Positions 1,084 through 60,086 of a stretch of DNA of 64,000 bases are shown piece after piece. The stretch lies in NCBI RefSeq assembly GCF_003268885.1, contig NZ_QLSX01000006.1, forward strand, positions 124,001-188,000, given 5' to 3'. Made by a program: the position numbers and the translations under genes. Every line of letters starts with the position of its first letter. Position 1 is the stretch's first letter. This DNA comes from Onishia taeanensis (GTDB taxonomy: Bacteria > Pseudomonadota > Gammaproteobacteria > Pseudomonadales > Halomonadaceae). The notes beneath the pieces were generated by a model. The model was given only the letters and a program-made list of their open reading frames with translations, had not been told where the DNA came from and made no database searches.

Positions 1084-1539
1084 TCAGCTGCCCTGGGCAG
1101 GCAGGTGGTGGGGGGTAACCGGATAGCCGCGCTGCTTGTAGGTGCGCCAGCACTCGCGCTTGGCGGTGAGCACATCCTGGTGCTGGTTGATGATCTCGGC
1201 GACCCGGGAAAAACGCGAGAACCACTCGGGAATCTCCGGGTGCAGGTTGAGCATCGCCATGTCCGGGTCCATTTCCCGGGACGGGTCCGGCGGGCCCTGC
1301 CAGCCGATGGTCACCGGCACTGTGGCCGCCATCTCGCTGCCAATCAGCGCATGGGGCAGGTAGCTCTCGGGCTTGAAGGTCCACAGCCGCTCGTCGATGA
1401 GCTTGGCCATGGCTTCGTCCTCGGCGTGCAGGTGCAGTCGGAAGCCCTTGCGATGAATGGTCTCGGCGAGCCGGCAGGCGAAGCCGAGCCGGGCATCGAG
1501 GGTGGTGTCGGGGAGGATGTAGAAATCGATCTGGGTCAT
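1084..1539 (-). CDS. holC: DNA polymerase III chi subunit
   Basis: Chi subunit of the clamp loader, which links the replicase to SSB; cytoplasmic. The 151-residue protein starts MTQIDFYILPDTTLDARLGFACRLAE and has the chi-family features of an N-terminal beta strand, a LIDERLWTF block and a late EIPEWFSRFSRVAEII block. A 178-residue reading frame continues further upstream, but MTQIDFYIL is where family members begin. It lies between ilvE and valS; holC-valS adjacency is conserved. Length is normal for the family (about 145-150). Confidence 0.93.
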   Translation of the reverse strand: MTQIDFYILPDTTLDARLGFACRLAETIHRKGFRLHLHAEDEAMAKLIDERLWTFKPESYLPHALIGSEMAATVPVTIGWQGPPDPSREMDPDMAMLNLHPEIPEWFSRFSRVAEIINQHQDVLTAKRECWRTYKQRGYPVTPHHLPAQGS

Positions 1540-1967
1540 GAGACTCCGTCTAAAACGGACTGCGCTTGGCCATACGGCGTTAAAAATCGGCTCGCACGCG
1601 AGCTCGGTCAAGATACTCATTTAACAACCTGTAAACTCCGCCTTTGACTCGCGACATCCCTGTCGCTCGCTCGGTGAGCAGCCGAGCTGTCCAAATCGGC
1701 TGTCCTGCCGATTTGTCGCCGATTTTTGCCTTGTCAGGCCTTCGCTCGTCGGCATTTTATCTCGGAGTCTTGGGAGGTAAAGGAGCTGCCTGGGCGGCGA
1801 GGCGGGCGCGGGGTCAGGGCAGAGTGAGGGTCTTTTGCCATGGATGGCAAAAGTAGCGCCCAGGGACGGGTTTACCGCGCCCTCACGGAGCTCTCACCGG
1901 GTCCTGCCGCCGGACAGACCTCCACCCTCAATCGGCACCTGGGCCTCGAGAGGGTGGTGGCTGAGGC
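1540..1967. other. Intergenic region rich in inverted repeats
   Basis: This 428-base stretch between ilvE and holC has no supportable gene. It holds several near-perfect hairpins: GCTCGG/CCGAGC at 1669-1687, CAAATCGGC/GCCGATTTG at 1692-1715 with a 6-base loop, and CTTTTGCCAT/ATGGCAAAAG at 1832-1853 with a 2-base loop. The last sits inside a wider GTGAGGG/CCCTCAC pair (1824-1830 and 1880-1886). It may be a dispersed structured repeat, a processed leader of holC, or a terminator region. Confidence 0.55.
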
Positions 1968-3068
1968 TCAAGCCAGGCGGGTCATCCAGCCGCGCGTATC
2001 TTCGCGACGACCGTATTGCAGGTCGAGCAGCTGGCTGCGCAGGCGCTTGGCGATCGGGTTGCCGTTGTCGCCGGCCAGACGGATGGTGTCGTCCTCGGTA
2101 ACCAGCTCGCCCACCGGGGTGATTACCGCGGCGGTGCCGCAGGCGAAGACCTCGGTGATCTCGCCGGAGGCCGCGCCCTCGCGCCACTCGTCGATACTGA
2201 TGGCACGCTCTTGCGGGGTCAGGCCCTCGTCGGCGGCCATCTCGAGGATGGAGTCGCGGGTCACGCCCTCGAGGATGGTGTCGGTGAGGCGCGGCGTGAC
2301 GATGCGACCGTCCTTGTAGACGAAGAACAGGTTCATGCCGCCGAGCTCTTCGATCCACTTGTTCTCGATGGCGTCGAGGAAGGCTACCTGGCTGCACTCA
2401 TGGCTGGCGGCTTCCTTCTGGGCGGCCAGCGAGGCGGCATAGTTGCCGCCGCACTTGGCAAAGCCGGTACCGCCGGGGGCGGCGCGCTTGTAGTGCGAGG
2501 ACAGCCAGATCGACACCGGCGCCACGCCGCCCTTGAAGTAGGCGGCCGCCGGCGAGGCGATCACGTAGTAGTCGACCTCCTTGGAGGGGCGAACGCCGAG
2601 GAAGCTTTCGCTGGCGATCATGAAGGGCCGCAGGTAGAGGCTTGATTCCTCGCCCTCATGGGCCGGCGTTGGCACCCAGTCGCTGTCCAGCGCTAGCAGG
2701 GCCTTCAGCGAGCCGATGAAGGTCTCGTCGTCGAGCTCCGGCAGCGCCAGGCGGCGCGCACTGCGACGGAAGCGCTCGGCGTTCTTCTCCGGGCGGAAGG
2801 TCCACACCGAGCCGTCGGCATGGCGGTAGGCCTTGATGCCTTCGAAAATTTCCTGGGCGTAGTGCAGCACGGCGGCGGCCGGGTCCAGGGTCAGCGGGCC
2901 GTAGGGGCGCACTTCATTGCCGTGCCAGCCTGCGCTTTCTGTCCAGCGCACGTGGGCCATGTGGTCGGAGAAGTACTGACCGAACCCGGGGCTCTCGAGG
3001 ATGGTGTCGCGGATCTGAGGGGCCGTGGGGTGGGCAGTCGGCCGAACGTCGAAGCCTGAAGGGGTCAC
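1968..3068 (-). CDS. ilvE: Branched-chain-amino-acid aminotransferase (group II)
   Basis: PLP enzyme interconverting Val, Leu and Ile with their 2-oxo acids using glutamate; cytoplasmic. The 366-residue product has the eukaryote-like BCAT organisation: YAQEIFEGIKAYR near residue 70, SSLYLRPFM near 142, and the PLP lysine in AKCGGNYAASL (about Lys205). EELGGMNLFFV and a late GTAAVITPVGE phosphate-binding segment follow. The length fits the longer type-II BCAT family. It sits between pepA and holC, which are normally adjacent, so it has been inserted into an otherwise conserved order. Confidence 0.95.
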   Translation of the reverse strand: MTPSGFDVRPTAHPTAPQIRDTILESPGFGQYFSDHMAHVRWTESAGWHGNEVRPYGPLTLDPAAAVLHYAQEIFEGIKAYRHADGSVWTFRPEKNAERFRRSARRLALPELDDETFIGSLKALLALDSDWVPTPAHEGEESSLYLRPFMIASESFLGVRPSKEVDYYVIASPAAAYFKGGVAPVSIWLSSHYKRAAPGGTGFAKCGGNYAASLAAQKEAASHECSQVAFLDAIENKWIEELGGMNLFFVYKDGRIVTPRLTDTILEGVTRDSILEMAADEGLTPQERAISIDEWREGAASGEITEVFACGTAAVITPVGELVTEDDTIRLAGDNGNPIAKRLRSQLLDLQYGRREDTRGWMTRLA

Positions 3069-10787: not shown

Positions 10788-11538
10788 GAAACGACTGCGA
10801 CCGAAAAAGGGCGCCCATTGTCGCCGCTTGGCGCGGGGATGTCATCCGCCGGGCGGATCCTGCACGGTTGTCAGGCCAGATGTTCGACGGCTTGCCTACT
10901 GCAACAGCCAGCGCTTTCGTTGTCGACGCCAAGGCATACCTGATTCGCGATCACGGCATCATGCCCAAGCGTTGACCCAGCGCAGGAGAAAATCATGCCT
11001 CGGTGTTAGGCTGAGTACTTAATAACCAAGACTGCATAATGACATCGCCCATACGCAGGGAACTCCATATGGCAACGGCTTGCTCCGCATCCCGCATCGA
11101 CCTGCGCCCGAACAAGCATCGGCTGCGGGGGGCGACCGCCTGCTCGTCGGCATTAGTCTCGCCAGTGGTCGCGTCTACCCGCCGCGCAGTACCTTCCCCG
11201 CGGCGTGTGCGGATGAACCTGCTGACTCGCGTCGTGACCGCGACCCACTGTCCCTTAAAGGGCGGTGCCCCGTACGTCTCGTTTGGTGATAGGGCCGATG
11301 TGGAGCGGGGCATGAAAGGCCGAACGTGGGCGGCGTGACGGCTGCTATCGAGCCAAAGCGGCCCTCCCGACAAAGACAGCATGCGCGTTTATTGGTGTTA
11401 TATAGCCACGTCAACGAAAATGCACATAAAAATCAATGGGTTGGTGTGGCGGTATAAGAAAATTGAATGCGCACGCTCGTTCAAGTGGGAAAACTCGCGT
11501 GCTACCTAATACCTGTTATGCCTCAAGAAGGAGACCAT
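10788..11538. other. Gap between truC and the cassette array
   Basis: There is no gene I can support in these 751 bases. Long frames exist on both strands (for example 10993-11382 minus), but none shows a recognisable domain or a convincing ribosome site. A GTTAGGC box (11005-11011), a GTTATAT box (11397-11403) and a GTTATGC box (11515-11521) resemble integron recombination half-sites. The last is placed 17 bases before the first cassette gene, as in the other cassettes. No integron integrase is present. Confidence 0.5.
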
Positions 11539-11997
11539 ATGAATGAAGCAATCACACTAAGACCGGCCACCATGAAAGATGCAGATATGCTCTTGGAATG
11601 GCGCAATGACCCAGAAACAAGAAAAGCCAGCCACAACACAGCTGAAGTCCTGAGAGATGATCACATTTCATGGTTAACACGGACACTTAGCAACCCAGAT
11701 CGAAGGCTGTATGTAGCTGAAGAAGATGGTGACCCTGTTGGTACAGTTCGAGCTGATTTTTCAGATAGTGTATGGGAGCTGTCGTGGACGGTATCTCCAA
11801 GAGCAAGAGGCCGAGGACTGGCAAAACGGATGGTTGCTGTGTTGGCCAACCAAATCTCAGAACCAATCCGAGCAGAAGTAAAAACTGGAAATATTGCCTC
11901 AGCCCGAATTGCTGAGCATGCCGGCATGGAATGCGAGCAAGAAACCGATGGGGTTCTTCATTACAAGAGAGCAGCATTAGATGAACAAAAGGCATAA
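11539..11997 (+). CDS. GNAT-family N-acetyltransferase (cassette 1)
   Basis: Predicted acetyl-CoA-dependent N-acetyltransferase, 152 residues; acceptor unknown. It opens ITLRPATMKDADMLLEWRND, and the acetyl-CoA binding motif A is SPRARGRGLAKRMV near residue 93, followed by NIASARIAEHAGM. The style resembles RimJ/PseH-like acetyltransferases. The ATG at 11539 follows a strong AAGGAGA. A longer frame from 11467 is not needed. Its TAA stop lies inside the left box of the first attC site, as is usual for cassettes. Codon use is AT-richer than in chromosomal neighbours. Confidence 0.87.
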   Translation: MNEAITLRPATMKDADMLLEWRNDPETRKASHNTAEVLRDDHISWLTRTLSNPDRRLYVAEEDGDPVGTVRADFSDSVWELSWTVSPRARGRGLAKRMVAVLANQISEPIRAEVKTGNIASARIAEHAGMECEQETDGVLHYKRAALDEQKA

Positions 11998-12063
11998 CAA
12001 GGCGCTGCACCGGACGGCAATTCCGCTGCGCTCCATTGCCGCCGGTGAGCTTGGTCGTTATCC
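11992..12063 (+). other. attC site 1
   Basis: Left box GCATAAC (11992-11998) and right box GTTATCC (12057-12063) flank an imperfect palindrome. The left arm CACCGG-A-CGGCAAT (12008-12021) pairs with ATTGCCGCCGGTG (12035-12047), leaving A12014 extrahelical. The 13-base loop is TCCGCTGCGCTCC. The single extrahelical base is the strand-selection feature of attC sites. Confidence 0.85.
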
Positions 12064-12077
12064 GGAAAAATGATCAA

Positions 12078-12905
12078 ATGAACATGGAAGAATGGAACGA
12101 CATAGTTAAGGGTGTTGCACGCTCAATGGCGAACGAGGTATCCCGCTACCTCACTCCTATATCCGCTGAAGAGGAGGAAAACTGGGGGGTGTTGGTTGGA
12201 AGTGGCGCATACGTCGAATACAAAGATAATGTTTTTGCTGTTACGAATGCCCACGTTTTATCTGAGCTAAAGGGGAGACGAGGAGGGCTTCATCTCAAAA
12301 ATTCAACTATTGATGATGAGCCGGCGTCAGTAGTAGGCATCAATAAGCCCTTTGGAATATTAACGTCACCATCAGACAGCGCAGCGGTGAGAGTTTCTCC
12401 TTCTGCTTGGAAGAATGAGGGAAAGGCATCATCTGCGATACCGTATGAACGCTTTGCGAATAGAGATGAGCCTGTCGATCGTGAATTGCTCTTTTTTATC
12501 GGCTTCTCCGACGAAAGATCTAAGTCTCTTTATGGAATGTTGATGACAAAAGGCACTCCATACACGTCTCAGGAGCCCGAGGGGGTTGCAGCACCGGATT
12601 ACCCCGATCATGAATTTCATATCTTATACCCCACTGGACTGATTGAGGATCTGGGAGATGAGCAGAAAGGCGCGCCTCTTCCCCCTGGATTCAGTGGATC
12701 TTTAGTTTGGAATACAAGGTATGTAGAGATTATGCAGCAAGGTGGCACATGGTCTCCTGATGATGCTGTTGTGACGGGAATACTAAAGAGATGGATTGAG
12801 AAGGAAGAGCTGCTAACAGCGACCAAGATAGAAAAAGCAGGGTTTCGAGGGCTATTCGAAGCCGTATTGGGGGATAACAATGTCATCCACGCGACAAGCG
12901 CGTGA
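12078..12905 (+). CDS. Trypsin-like serine peptidase domain protein (cassette 2)
   Basis: 275 residues with a chymotrypsin/trypsin-like arrangement. GVLVGSGAYVEYKDNVFAVT is followed by NAHVL, with the candidate catalytic His near residue 59. A candidate Asp lies in SPSDSAAVRV, and the candidate nucleophile Ser is in PPGFSGSLVWN (compare GDSGGP). There is no signal peptide, so it is probably cytosolic. Its target is unknown; related soluble trypsin-like domains occur in bacterial conflict systems. I start at ATG 12078; the longer frame from 12036 would begin inside attC site 1. The stop codon is inside attC site 2. Confidence 0.72.
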   Translation: MNMEEWNDIVKGVARSMANEVSRYLTPISAEEEENWGVLVGSGAYVEYKDNVFAVTNAHVLSELKGRRGGLHLKNSTIDDEPASVVGINKPFGILTSPSDSAAVRVSPSAWKNEGKASSAIPYERFANRDEPVDRELLFFIGFSDERSKSLYGMLMTKGTPYTSQEPEGVAAPDYPDHEFHILYPTGLIEDLGDEQKGAPLPPGFSGSLVWNTRYVEIMQQGGTWSPDDAVVTGILKRWIEKEELLTATKIEKAGFRGLFEAVLGDNNVIHATSA

Positions 12906-12919
12906 TGGCGGCGTTATAT
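12872..12919 (+). other. attC site 2 (short)
   Basis: Left box GGATAAC (12872-12878) and right box GTTATAT (12913-12919). The left arm CATC-C-ACGCG (12884-12893) pairs with CGCGTGATG (12899-12907), leaving one extrahelical C. The loop is only ACAAG. The full site is 48 bp, at the short end for attC, and it contains the peptidase stop codon. Confidence 0.72.
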
Positions 12920-12941
12920 TTCAAGCGCATAGGGAGCCAGT

Positions 12942-13805
12942 TTGAAAGATAAACCGTCAGATTTAGAGAGACTTATTCATGAATCACTAGAGCAGCTAGG
13001 CTGGTCGGCTGACGCTAACAGTATCGCTGATAGAGTACATAGACTTAATATAGGTCTTCCATTAGAAGACGAGTTTTCGATTATCTGCGGCTGGCTCGGC
13101 CAATGTGATTTAGTCCATAAATTAGATCAGCAGCAGTATCCAACCACTTCTAAAGATGCTTTTCAGGTTCCAGATTTACTGGCAAACTTTAACGTGCGTG
13201 GCGCAGGAAATACTTCCGTTTTAATTGAAGTTAAGTCTTGTGAGAAAAATGTATTGTCTCTCAGGCCTGATTATGTATCTAAGTTAAGGGCTTGTGGTCA
13301 ATTGTTAAGGCTGCCCGTTTTAATTGCTTGGCGAAAGTATGGGGTTTGGAGTCTGGTAGATTTAGACGTTTTTTCAAAAGCTAATAAAAATTTCAATCTC
13401 AATTTCAATGACGCTATGCGAAATAGTTTAATGAGTAAATTTCTTGGCGACTTCTCATACACTCCGCAAGTTAATTCGGGTGTCCATATTAGCTTCAAGA
13501 AAGAAAAGCTTATTGGATCTATCGAAACAGATGAAGGGCTACAAGAAAATTGGCACATGGTCATAGATGACGTGTATTTCACTAACGGGGAAAGTGAGAA
13601 ATTAAGAGACCTGTCGCCGATTGCTCAGCAACTATTCCATTCCTGGGACCTTACTACAACAGAATCGCACTCTGATTCTCACGTGGTGATGCATAATACA
13701 ATTGATCAAGAATCGGGAATGTTTGCGCATATGGCTTTAACTAGGTTGCTTTCTTTTCACGGTCGAGAAGACGAGGTTCATTGGAGGCACCATCATGCAA
13801 CATGA
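12942..13805 (+). CDS. PD-(D/E)XK nuclease-like protein (cassette 3)
   Basis: 287-residue protein of no named family that I recognise. Residues 75-135 fit a restriction-endonuclease-like core: an acidic residue in FQVPDLLANF, then VLIEVKSCEKN giving the E-X-K, followed by a helix and LIAWRKYGVWSLVDL. The N-terminus looks helical (LERLIHESLEQLGW) and the remaining 150 residues are unassigned. The TTG start at 12942 is preceded by AGGGAG. The coding sequence is AT-rich. It overlaps a 44-codon gene by 11 bases, so the pair is probably co-translated. Nuclease activity is an inference from motifs. Confidence 0.68.
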   Translation: MKDKPSDLERLIHESLEQLGWSADANSIADRVHRLNIGLPLEDEFSIICGWLGQCDLVHKLDQQQYPTTSKDAFQVPDLLANFNVRGAGNTSVLIEVKSCEKNVLSLRPDYVSKLRACGQLLRLPVLIAWRKYGVWSLVDLDVFSKANKNFNLNFNDAMRNSLMSKFLGDFSYTPQVNSGVHISFKKEKLIGSIETDEGLQENWHMVIDDVYFTNGESEKLRDLSPIAQQLFHSWDLTTTESHSDSHVVMHNTIDQESGMFAHMALTRLLSFHGREDEVHWRHHHAT

Positions 13806-13929
13806 TGCTGCAATCTCAAGTGTCTTAGATTTCAGAAGCGGGATTGAGGAGAACCTAAAAGCAGGCATTATTAAATACATCTTTGACATCGAGCCAGCGA
13901 ATGTCCCGGATTTTCTCAATGAAATATAA
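13795..13929 (+). CDS. 44-residue hypothetical protein overlapping the nuclease-like gene
   Basis: A small frame starting MQHDAAISSVLDFRSGIEEN, preceded by GGAGG seven bases before its ATG, and overlapping the upstream stop by 11 bases. The peptide is acidic and predicted helical. Its stop lies in the left box of attC site 3, so both genes are in one cassette. It could be a partner or inhibitor of the nuclease-like protein; nothing in the sequence proves this. Confidence 0.62.
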   Translation: MQHDAAISSVLDFRSGIEENLKAGIIKYIFDIEPANVPDFLNEI

Positions 13930-13995
13930 CAAACGCAAGTTGTCGGACTGGTTTTCCGCTGCGCTCCAAACCAGCCGCAAATGCGGGCGTTATAT
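13924..13995 (+). other. attC site 3
   Basis: Left box ATATAAC (13924-13930) and right box GTTATAT (13989-13995). The left arm CGG-A-CTGGTTT (13944-13954) pairs with AAACCAGCCG (13968-13977), leaving A13947 extrahelical. The loop TCCGCTGCGCTCC (13955-13967) is identical to that of attC site 1. Confidence 0.85.
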
Positions 13996-14290
13996 CTGCG
14001 TTAGCAAAACATTCGTTCTAGGCTAATAGCGGTCTTCCCAGCGGTCCCAGCTTCACTTGGAGGCCGAGGTCTGACCGTGTTCACTTGCTCGATCTACTCC
14101 CGTCAGGGCTCAATCAGTCGCCGGCAAAATCGGTGACCGTTCAGTTTGCCAGGCGCTTCATCACTGGGCGGGGCGCTGTCTGGCCGCGCTGGGGAGGGAG
14201 TGATAGCGTCAGCCACAGGTAAGCATATGCACAGTCGGTCGCGGGTTCCTGAGAAGTGAGGGCTGGCGGCCAAGTGGCGAGAGGTAGTGA
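13996..14290. other. Gap between cassette array and sirtuin gene
   Basis: About 295 bases where composition returns to the chromosomal GC level. A GTTAGCA box lies at 14000-14006, but there is no paired half-site. No gene or clear terminator is seen. Confidence 0.4.
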
Positions 14291-57584: not shown

Positions 57585-57671
57585 GCCGGCGTGGCGGAAT
57601 TGGTAGACGCAGCGGATTCAAAATCCGCCGCTGGAGACAGTGTGTCGGTTCGAGTCCGACCGCCGGCACCA
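57585..57671 (+). tRNA. tRNA-Leu (anticodon CAA), CCA encoded
   Basis: Acceptor arms GCCGGCG and CGCCGGC pair fully. The anticodon stem GCGGA/TCCGC holds the loop TTCAAAA, giving anticodon CAA. A long variable arm marks a class II tRNA, GGTTCGAGTCC forms the T arm, and discriminator A plus CCA end the 87-nt gene. Confidence 0.97.
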
Positions 57672-57718: not shown

Positions 57719-58215
57719 CACCCTCGTAAGTATCTACAGCCTGCCACCGAATCTCGGTGCCTGTGTATTTCCCATGCGCATTTTTTCTTGCCGCCATGAT
57801 TGGCAGCGAGACGCTCTACACGTGCTATCCGTGCCCGCCTGACGGGCGCTCGGTGCAGTTTCATGTTCCCCGACCTTCGCGGCACCCGCTCTCATTTTGC
57901 TGTGATAGGCTTGAATCAGTACAAGTCCATATACAGTCGCCCTGCATCCGGTCGGCAAGCCAAAGCAGGTTCGCCGCAAGGTTGAGCGCAGGGAGAAGCC
58001 GTCGCACAAGCGACGGTGGCAGGCAGCCATGACGTATGGAAGAGGGGCTAGTGATCGAAGAAGCGGGGCAGGTAAGCCCAGAGATAGAGAAGGCGCGTAA
58101 AGCGTTTAAGCCAACGGGAACGGCTACCGACTAGCCAAGAGGGTTGTGGATAGGTGGGGTTAGGGTGAGGTAGGTGATATATAAATTTATTATGAGTTTG
58201 TAAATGGGGGCAGGG
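57672..58215. other. Island left-hand non-coding stretch
   Basis: 544 bases after the tRNA. Frames at 57734-58030 (both strands) and a 32-codon frame at 58036-58134 lack a ribosome site or recognisable domain. AT content rises sharply after 58150, next to the nucleotide-enzyme-like gene, marking a likely promoter. Confidence 0.4.
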
Positions 58216-59097
58216 ATGGCAGTTAAAGAAAGTAAAAGTAAAGAAAGTGAAATATTAAAAAAAGCATTTTTTGTTACTCCCATCGGTCCACATGGATCAA
58301 AAATAAGAAGAGCAACTGATGGACTGATTGATTCAGTTGTAAAGCCTGTTGTTGAGAGTTATGGGTATAAGTGCGTTGCCTCTCACCAAGAGTCCGAGCA
58401 AGGATCAATATCGCAAAGAGTTATTGAACACTTAATAGATGATGATTTAGTTATTGTTAATCTAACTGGTCTTAATTCGAATGTTATGTACGAGCTGGGC
58501 ATTCGGCACTCGACAGGAAAGCCTGTAATACTGATCTGTGAGAATGGTACGGACCTTCCATTTGATATGTACGATCAGAGGACAATTTTTTATTCTGATG
58601 ATATGCAAGGTGGCCTTGATTTAAGTCAGAAGCTTAAAGGGCTTTTGGGCAGTAAAGATGGGGTTGAGTCAAATGCTTATAATCCTGTTATATCTAAGGC
58701 AAAAGAGAATATTATTGAAAATGCGTTGAAGGATATAGATCTTTCTGGGCTTGATGGCGCTTCTCTAGTTGCAGATGTATACGAATCTATGAAAGAGGTG
58801 TCATCAGGTTTGAGATCTCTAGGAGCAAGAGTTAATGATATAGAAAGAGGTTATGGAAAGAGTGGACACGGATTTGGTGGTCATCTGGTAATGAAAAAAA
58901 TGGGTAAAGGTGGGGATCTTTTGTTGACGACCACAGATTTAAGTGAGGCGCTTGTTTTAGAACAGGAGTTGGTGAGCAAAGGGATTAGTACTGATTTGAT
59001 TGAAAAAAATGGGAGTGTTGATATTAGTGTTGCGCCATGGGATGTGGATAAAGCTATAAATGTAGTTAGTAGGTACACAGAGAATAATGGATATTAA
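58216..59097 (+). CDS. Nucleoside 2-deoxyribosyltransferase-like protein, possible defence effector
   Basis: About 293 residues, strongly AT-rich. Residues 15-125 look like a Rossmann-like nucleotide-processing domain: KKAFFVTPIGPHGSKIRRATD, then VIVNLTGLNSNVMYELGIRH, STGKPVILICENG and PFDMYDQRTIFY. The (A/V)NLTGxNxNVxYELGxxH segment is typical of deoxyribosyltransferase/TIR-like domains found in bacterial immunity proteins. The C-terminal 90 residues are a separate small alpha/beta domain. ATG 58216 has GGGGG 5 bases before it; ATG 58204 is also possible. Function is not proven. Confidence 0.7.
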   Translation: MAVKESKSKESEILKKAFFVTPIGPHGSKIRRATDGLIDSVVKPVVESYGYKCVASHQESEQGSISQRVIEHLIDDDLVIVNLTGLNSNVMYELGIRHSTGKPVILICENGTDLPFDMYDQRTIFYSDDMQGGLDLSQKLKGLLGSKDGVESNAYNPVISKAKENIIENALKDIDLSGLDGASLVADVYESMKEVSSGLRSLGARVNDIERGYGKSGHGFGGHLVMKKMGKGGDLLLTTTDLSEALVLEQELVSKGISTDLIEKNGSVDISVAPWDVDKAINVVSRYTENNGY

Positions 59098-59117
59098 CCT
59101 CCTTGGTAATTATTTTT

Positions 59118-59144
59118 GGCGGCTTGTTTCTGCCGCCTTTCTTT
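59118..59144 (+). terminator. Terminator after the deoxyribosyltransferase-like gene
   Basis: GGCGGC / GCCGCC stem with an 8-base loop followed by TTTCTTT. Confidence 0.8.
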
Positions 59145-59649
59145 AGTTGTGTGTTATGACTTTTCCATTGCAAATAGTAGCTTGATAAATATCTTCACGT
59201 ACGAATCTGGGTTCGGACCAGGTCCAGTATTGACACCTCATTCCATCAGAACGTGTGTACTTTCTTTCATGGTCAGGCTCACCTAACATCATATAGAGTT
59301 GGCCTTTGGTCATACCCTCTACGATCTCTCCTCGAATACCTGCTTTCACTCGAGCATTCCTATCTTCGAGCTCAGATCGATATGAGCTAGTGCTTGGAGA
59401 CTGGCTAGAGGGTTGTTGGCTAGGCTGGCTTGAGGGGCGACGGATAGGCTGGCGAGCAGGAGAGGGATCGGAGCGGACGTGAGCCTGAGCTTCTAAAGAG
59501 GTTAGCGTGTCACGAGTAATGAAGACCTCACCATCAGTGCATGGGGTATCCTGGTAAGCTGTTGAGCCGTCCACCTCGCACTTGTAGACCTGGGCGTGAG
59601 CGGAAAGGGGCAGAAGTGCCATAGCTAGTAGCAGGGTACGTTTGATCAT
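59143..59649 (-). CDS. DUF4124-domain exported protein
   Basis: 168 residues. Signal peptide MIKRTLLLAMALLPLSAHA, then the DUF4124 motif QVYKCEVDGSTAYQDTPC. A Pro/Ser/Gln-rich linker (residues 66-92) and a C-terminal segment with GEIVEGMTKGQLYMMLGEPD follow, the latter reminiscent of SmpA/BamE-like folds. Periplasmic; role unknown. It is convergent with the preceding gene inside the island. Confidence 0.8.
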   Translation of the reverse strand: MIKRTLLLAMALLPLSAHAQVYKCEVDGSTAYQDTPCTDGEVFITRDTLTSLEAQAHVRSDPSPARQPIRRPSSQPSQQPSSQSPSTSSYRSELEDRNARVKAGIRGEIVEGMTKGQLYMMLGEPDHERKYTRSDGMRCQYWTWSEPRFVREDIYQATICNGKVITHN

Positions 59650-59827
59650 CCGTGATCATCCAGAAGCTTTATAGACGTAAGCTAATGTAGCACAAGGGCG
59701 CACAGTAGGGGCTGTTGCCTGATTTTTGTCTAGGGCAATGTGCCAAAGTGGCTTTAAGTAAGCATGTGGTGATCTGTAATCGATTGAACTTGCGGCTAAT
59801 ATGCTGCTTTGAGCAGGTTCTGGCAAA

Positions 59828-59929
59828 ATTCAAAATCCGCCGCTGGATACAGTGTGTCGGTTCGAGTCCGACCGCCGGCACCACAACATCAAGCACTCAC
59901 TTCCTCCCTCCGAGTCTTGATGGCCTCAG
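59828..59929 (+). repeat. Right copy of tRNA-Leu repeat, containing a tRNA 3' fragment
   Basis: Positions 59828-59883 repeat the tRNA from the anticodon loop through CCA with one change (GGATACAG for GGAGACAG). The upstream half of the tRNA is absent, so this copy cannot fold as a tRNA. The following 46 bases repeat the tRNA's 3' flank. Confidence 0.88.
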
Positions 59930-60086
59930 TCCCCCCCGAATTGATCAATCCAGTGCCTCCCTCGCTCCGGTGATGGCTTTTTGCTACCCGTTCGGCCAGC
60001 CATATGCGATGCCTGGCAGTGCCGAGCGTCGTGTGCGGTCCTGTCTCAGGTAGCGTCTTTCGCCTACACCTTTAGTCTATGTCATA

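Follow-up and report, generated by a model that had tools for sequence, protein, structure and literature searches.

Integrons are described as one attI site beside an integrase gene (intI), with one array of gene cassettes. Here, we analyzed a window of 64,000 nucleotides from Onishia taeanensis (RefSeq assembly GCF_003268885.1, contig NZ_QLSX01000006.1, positions 124,001 to 188,000), in which three cassettes stand behind a short module derived from an attI region. The closest described systems are clusters of attC sites lacking an integrase (CALIN; PMC9024848), which resemble this locus in being attC-ended cassette arrays without a neighboring intI and differ from it in the attI-derived module at the head here. 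According to PMC9024848, attI detection by IntegronFinder is limited to class 1, so that such array heads would be missed. What is unusual about the present locus is the module at its head, together with the spread of such modules across the family. Judging from its anatomy and from comparison with relatives, we think it likely that the locus (11338 to 13995) is a cassette landing pad, in which three cassettes follow an attI region of roughly 180 bp that was copied without an integrase gene; the integrase IntI, acting in trans, would once have filled it.

An attI-derived module heads the array

The module (type LE; about 11338 to 11517, plus strand) belongs to a dispersed repeat and ends at the crossover box GTT of the first cassette (11515 to 11517). 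Positions 11421 to 11518 match, with 86.2 bits, an attI-like model of 99 positions built from 20 sequences, the window copy included. In a locus search within the genus, the dispersed repeat extended from 11324 to 11518, and most copies ended at or near the GTT box. The stretch from 11463 to 11517 (plus strand) is 72.7% identical over 55 bp to the attI beside the intact intI of locus L023 (L, C, and G numbers denote fetched loci, contigs, and genomes, G000 being the genome of the window). In that locus, intI (1498 to 2478, minus strand) is divergent from the attI site, which ends at 2670; the same divergent layout was found in L090, L091, L095, L101, and L107, the intI of L090 aligning in two pieces. 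When 60 sites were aligned, a conserved stretch, mostly ending in CTAATACCTGTTA, was followed by unrelated sequence, which fits attI sites with differing first cassettes. Homology to an intI-adjacent site, a crossover at GTT, and cassettes beyond it, three features of an attI, were thus all found for the module. A 21-base stretch of the attI core had no exact match among viral contigs, and blastn of the module against the plasmid collection gave no match either.

An earlier sequence-only reading had described the locus as an isolated CALIN of three cassettes. The three-cassette CALIN survived the tests proposed with it (see below), but its attI-derived head had been overlooked. The array is not isolated either: the module at its head is one of eight attI-like matches in the genome, and its place is kept by relatives.

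Three attC sites delimit the cassettes

A covariance model of attC, trained on 30 sites from relatives with the window sites excluded, gave exactly three matches in the 64-kb window up to an E value of 10, all on the minus (bottom) strand. They are the attC of cassette 1 (11992 to 12063; 29.0 bits, E = 1.1e-5), of cassette 2 (12872 to 12919; 35.2 bits, E = 1.6e-7), and of cassette 3 (13924 to 13995; 39.9 bits, E = 6.5e-9), each assigned to the plus strand with the minus strand as the recombinogenic one. The three attC sites claimed from the sequence alone are therefore real, and at the positions claimed. All training sites had been drawn from stretches behind attI-like sites, and they include an attC of L057, 99% identical to the best-scoring window site (13924 to 13995), as well as several sites resembling the lowest-scoring one (11992 to 12063).

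Bottom-strand folding, which had also been suggested as a check, agreed with the model, since all three sites folded better than shuffled sequences (z values of -2.48, -2.20, and -3.68). The top-strand folds were nearly equal (z values of -2.00, -2.57, and -3.41), and for the middle site (12872 to 12919) the top strand even had the lower energy (-11.1 versus -9.1 kcal/mol for the bottom strand). Because the top strand folds about equally well, the polarity of attC is not shown by folding alone. In the alignment of the attC model, 77.0% of cells were paired versus 59.9% in shuffles, and 108 cells were changed on both sides versus 53.1, counts that are partly circular because the training sites had been selected by fold. 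Two simpler tools were discarded: a stringent palindrome pattern, useless since it found one place in the whole genome, and a hand-made hairpin finder, which was too loose and was replaced by the covariance model. At gathering scores, Rfam matched only a tRNA.

Boxes of the form G|TTA lie at 11515, 12057, 12913, and 13989, and the cassette boundaries suggested previously (12058 to 12913 and 12914 to 13989) agree with them in the G|TT convention. Cassette 1 (11516 to 12057) lies between the boxes at 11515 and 12057 and cassette 2 (12058 to 12913) between those at 12057 and 12913, while the limits of cassette 3 (12914 to 13989) are also marked by DNA similarity to L027, L028, and L029, which spans 12913 to 13990-13993. 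All three are on the plus strand.

attI-like sites are dispersed through the family and are followed by attC

The model search returned eight attI-like matches in G000: on C6 (the window locus) and at C1:519942, C1:219389, C5:177558, C5:184871, C14:18442, C14:21398, and C10:2775. The single-contig genome G003 had six, two of which are the two strands of one site, which leaves five places. For the family, where no more than 16 candidates were scored in each genome and the two strands of a near-palindromic site may be counted separately, there were 528 matches in total, found in 168 of the 250 genomes sampled and in 17 of 24 genera, and 129 genomes had at least two. Across the order, 13 of 390 genomes matched the model, and all 13 belong to the family.

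The fetched loci had been selected for a match to the attI-like model and not for attC. Among the 60 sites that they contain, 57 had at least 2 kb of sequence downstream, and in 46 of these 57 at least one attC followed within 4 kb. The downstream attC, 85 in number, were all correctly oriented, with none reversed; at most 30 of the 85 were training sites of the attC model. Two further attC were found upstream; they belong to L093, where a second attI-like site precedes them. Within the fetched stretches, no unlinked attI-like site had more than four detected attC. In G000, correctly oriented attC were found in the fetched stretches behind eight of eight attI-like sites, a count in which the orientation of the C10 site was chosen against the higher-scoring strand.

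For the reverse count, attC were searched genome-wide with 150 candidates scored per genome, in G000, G058, and G003, leaving aside the other four genomes of the genus. An attI-like site lay within 6 kb in front of the attC, in the right orientation, for eight of nine attC in G000, nine of nine in G058, and two of four in G003; by chance, less than 1% of attC would be so placed. The ninth attC of G000 is 873 bp from a contig start.

As a separate observation, the modules of L051, L059, L109, and L116 are truncated inside attI or missing, beside apparent attC arms, perhaps as products of misplaced crossovers.

The place is fixed and the cargo changes

The window locus is bounded by a pseudouridine synthase gene and a Sir2-family gene, and the right chromosomal flank up to the latter (13990 to 14290) is kept in relatives. 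A whole or partial module was found there in G000, G058, G004, G002, and G001, with shared flanks and with inserts of about 2472, 1984, 945, 1933, and 4594 bp, respectively. In blastn comparisons of the 10 insert pairs, six shared nothing and four shared 43 to 79 bp. Strain comparison, the remaining check put forward beforehand, thus showed cassette content to differ between relatives at the same place, with five different inserts in five genomes. No shared right end beyond attC appeared in the pairwise comparison at this locus. G058 was labeled as the same species by the tool used, yet pieces of its flanks are 84 to 90% identical. At a second locus, where an empty site was sought, G005 carried an allele without the module but with attC, read as a deletion, and no empty site was recovered.

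Integrase genes in the genome and in the family

There is no intI in cis at the array, and a TIGR02249 profile search of the whole of G000 found no intact one. Five matches were obtained, the best scoring 80.4 bits against a cutoff of 265. All 14 control genomes examined gave weak matches of this sort, and those of G000, apart from the fragment described below, were taken for Xer-like proteins. The earlier statement that the window holds no integrase can accordingly be widened to the whole genome, where nothing exceeds the TIGR02249 cutoff. One of the five matches, a fragment of intI (3 to 70, with three stops), lies at G000:C5:196208, adjoined by a weak attI-like match (L071, 2476 to 2548, 15.8 bits). 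Since this relic is all that was seen of intI, the pads of this strain have probably become frozen, a state that only a newly acquired integrase would end.

In the family, 58 of the 250 genomes had an intI match above the cutoff. Both attI-like sites and a full intI were present in 41 genomes, attI-like sites only in 127, intI only in 17, and neither in 65; 100 of the 127 had no intI match of any kind at an E value of 1e-30. At the level of the 60 fetched sites, intI adjoined six and a stub of intI four, with neither in the fetched flank of the other 50. Some weak matches, found in L103 and L104, come from an IS91-like element.

How the pads may have arisen and been filled

Under our reading of the locus as a landing pad, IntI encoded elsewhere in the cell would have recombined cassettes at each pad (attC with the attI-like site), and one trans-acting integrase would then have served many sites. 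Beyond the single locus, we lean, if only somewhat, toward a distributed integron, in which the family would keep integrase-free attI modules, dispersed over many chromosomal places as independent units, and one IntI would load cassettes, immune-type genes included, into all of them in trans. If true, a cassette could enter many loci, with no queue in one array.

Several observations weigh against this interpretation. Eleven of the 57 sites had no attC above the threshold, and these include L050, L058, and L061 of the window locus, which lack an attC at an E value of 0.05. Without the C10 site, for which the opposite strand scores 30.9 versus 21.9 bits, the G000 count falls to six of nine; one of the nine attC of G058 sits behind a truncated module detected by BLAST only, and G003 has two attC matches without a pad. 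In the same stretches, the loose hairpin finder matched the right strand 46 times and the opposite strand 35 times, many of these matches being mirror images of one palindrome. At the window locus, the module of G001 is cut by an IS91-like element near 11397, with no attI core found, and in G002 the match breaks off at position 86 of the 99 in the model, before the crossover box is reached. Complete integrons have a cassette promoter, Pc, beside attI; scanning the module for promoter consensus sequences gave none, and no working intI turned up when the genome of the window was searched. Finally, attI-like sites and full intI are not associated among the 250 genomes (Fisher's P = 0.63), which also fits fossil sites; the pads therefore outlast the integrase, a situation compatible with past use in trans as well as with fossils.

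The alternative that survives best, although we consider it improbable, is that the pads are fossils of separate complete integrons, each of which lost its intI by deletion and kept attI with a few cassettes. Stubs of intI at 4 of the 60 sites (L070, L072, L092, and L094) speak for it, as does the broken or absent intI of many genomes, while the 50 sites with no trace of intI in the fetched flank speak against it. The history of the copies bears on the same question. In a midpoint-rooted tree of 38 sites, based on a short alignment (about 180 bases per row), the six intI-linked sites formed a clade at 0.995. L096, L097, and L106, of the other dispersed type and without intI in the fetched flank, joined this clade at 0.911, which speaks for decay from complete integrons. 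The LE-type modules fell outside it, and they start at a common left end, whereas independent decay at each locus would be expected to leave left ends that vary. Being set apart from the intI-linked attI, the LE-type modules were probably copied as integrase-free units and not remade by loss of intI at each locus. The second dispersed type, seen in L093, L096, L097, and L106, is about 210 bp long and has a left part of its own.

The common left end would also suit mini-arrays in which module and cassettes were transposed as one unit by other machinery, the module being merely the left end. This explanation, which we hold to be quite unlikely, could draw on non-orthologous copies in different genomes that are up to 91.5% identical and on the IS91-like elements present at several sites. 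However, cargo varies at one orthologous locus while flanks and module stay, the pairwise comparison revealed no common right end beyond attC, and the module is homologous to attI. Homogenization of copies within genomes is not supported: among 15 copies, mean identity was 76.3% for pairs of the same genome (13 pairs), 79.2% for orthologous pairs (7), and 75.2% for the others (85).

The IS91-like element at these sites was read in L103, where it encodes a tyrosine recombinase of 288 amino acids and a zinc-finger transposase of 383 amino acids. It begins exactly at the GTT box of attI in L023, L044, L048, L103, and L104, as if it targeted attI (in the first three, only its first 60 to 75 bases are in the fetched stretch), and in L062 it lies inside the module. 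Elements of this kind move by rolling-circle transposition. They may have copied the modules in this way; they are on the cassette side of attI, and no copying event was seen. In L057 (G058:C1, about 3141.5 to 3144.4 kb), a 944-bp cassette is present as three tandem copies that are 100% identical; the host genome, G058, has no intI above the cutoff.

Last, an ordinary CALIN formed by insertion into unrelated chromosomal sites, its likeness to attI being a coincidence, is strongly disfavored, for although cassettes are reportedly found at non-attI sites elsewhere (the attG sites of Loot 2024, which others who cite that work describe as divergent from attI and attC and as a chromosomal landing of cassettes outside the integron), the core here is homologous to an intI-adjacent attI, matches in the order are confined to one family, and attI-like sites and attC are linked in the counts above. 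The pads and attG sites are alike in the chromosomal landing and unlike in that the pads are homologous to attI.

Cassette genes and cargo at other pads

The cassettes of this array are ordinary in kind. Their GC content is 0.41 to 0.50, versus 0.59 to 0.62 in the adjoining stretches, and their genes are all on the plus strand. Cassette 1 carries a GNAT acetyltransferase gene (11539 to 11997; Pfam Acetyltransf_3, E = 1.3e-16) and cassette 2 a gene weakly matching a trypsin-like peptidase family (12078 to 12905; Trypsin_2, E = 2.1e-4, 22.5 bits, short of the cutoff of 27.6). In cassette 3, the gene at 12942 to 13805 weakly matches the Hjc nuclease family (E = 0.0052, below the cutoff), which 9 of 10 aligned members of this nuclease match at E values up to 0.1. 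Relative to nine of nine homologues, the gene is frameshifted near its 3' end (window 13780 to 13930). A 44-codon frame at 13795 to 13929 was dropped as a second gene, as it holds the last codons of the nuclease gene in another frame and is in frame with the nuclease in all nine homologues. Searches of PDB sequences with the nuclease profile and with the protease returned nothing up to an E value of 1.

Nine relatives of the nuclease (57 to 92% identical) were found in a scan of genome contigs, in metagenome-assembled genomes (MAGs) labeled Pseudomonadaceae, Thalassovita, and Gammaproteobacteria, in an Amphritea MAG, and in Kosakonia, Serratia, Aliidiomarina, Aeromonas, and Vibrio; the phage collection held none. 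In the first three MAG contigs (L027, L028, and L029), DNA identity of 86 to 89% runs from 12913 to 13990-13993, that is, between the ends of cassette 3, and attC again follows the nuclease cassette, with a weaker, partial match in L029. In Kosakonia and Serratia, the nuclease gene is present and similarity ends at 13960, within attC. In Escherichia coli, 5 of 5,426 genomes matched, and only over the last 66 to 67 bases of the cassette, which are its attC. Read at the sequence level, this pattern shows cassette 3 to be mobile as a unit ending at GTT boxes, although the taxon labels of the MAGs may be wrong.

Cargo was scanned in 103 proteins (one from the window and 102 of 117 listed open reading frames), with no background computed. 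Among the best 25 of 67 Pfam families, the GNAT families (five members) and AAA_15 (three) were the commonest, and TIR, SMODS, HEPN_Toprim, and PIN families had one or two members each. Among the best 25 of 262 PADLOC models, those of AriA matched three members and those of GajA and Old the same number, as is usual for ATPases of this kind. Families of the immune type also occur at other pads of G000: a SMODS nucleotidyltransferase at the C10 pad (L121, 1227 to 2105), GmrSD_N beside a weak HEPN match at the C14 pad (L119, 5189 to 6874), and PIN_8 at the C1 pad (L047, 3158 to 4426).

Elsewhere in the window, GC content is low at 58001 to 60000 (0.415 and 0.491 per kb, with a GC skew of 0.369 in the first kilobase). 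A tRNA (57585 to 57668) directly precedes this stretch, which is possibly an island.

Relation to described systems

In the open-access literature, we found no title or abstract describing dispersed attI copies; subscription journals were mostly outside this search. Such copies could account for CALINs at conserved chromosomal positions. They could also keep cassettes from ending up far from the first array position, and could allow a transient integrase to reload many loci. The dispersed landing sites are of greater interest than the three genes of the window. The CALINs of Xanthomonas at conserved loci away from ilvD (PMC12444791) are similar in forming several small cassette clusters whose positions are kept across species, with the integrase elsewhere or lost; unlike the pads, no attI copy is mentioned at those loci in the part of that article which describes them. 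Sedentary chromosomal integrons share with the present system the attI core, the canonical orientation of cassettes, and, in relatives, the divergent intI, but they have one platform, and here there are several unlinked attI-like sites. Gene cassettes of the delta-attI type (PMC12901181) are alike in that an attI sequence is displaced from intI; as set out in the pertinent part of that source, they are attI fragments replacing attC in class 1 and class 2 arrays, whereas here attI regions head arrays at other loci.

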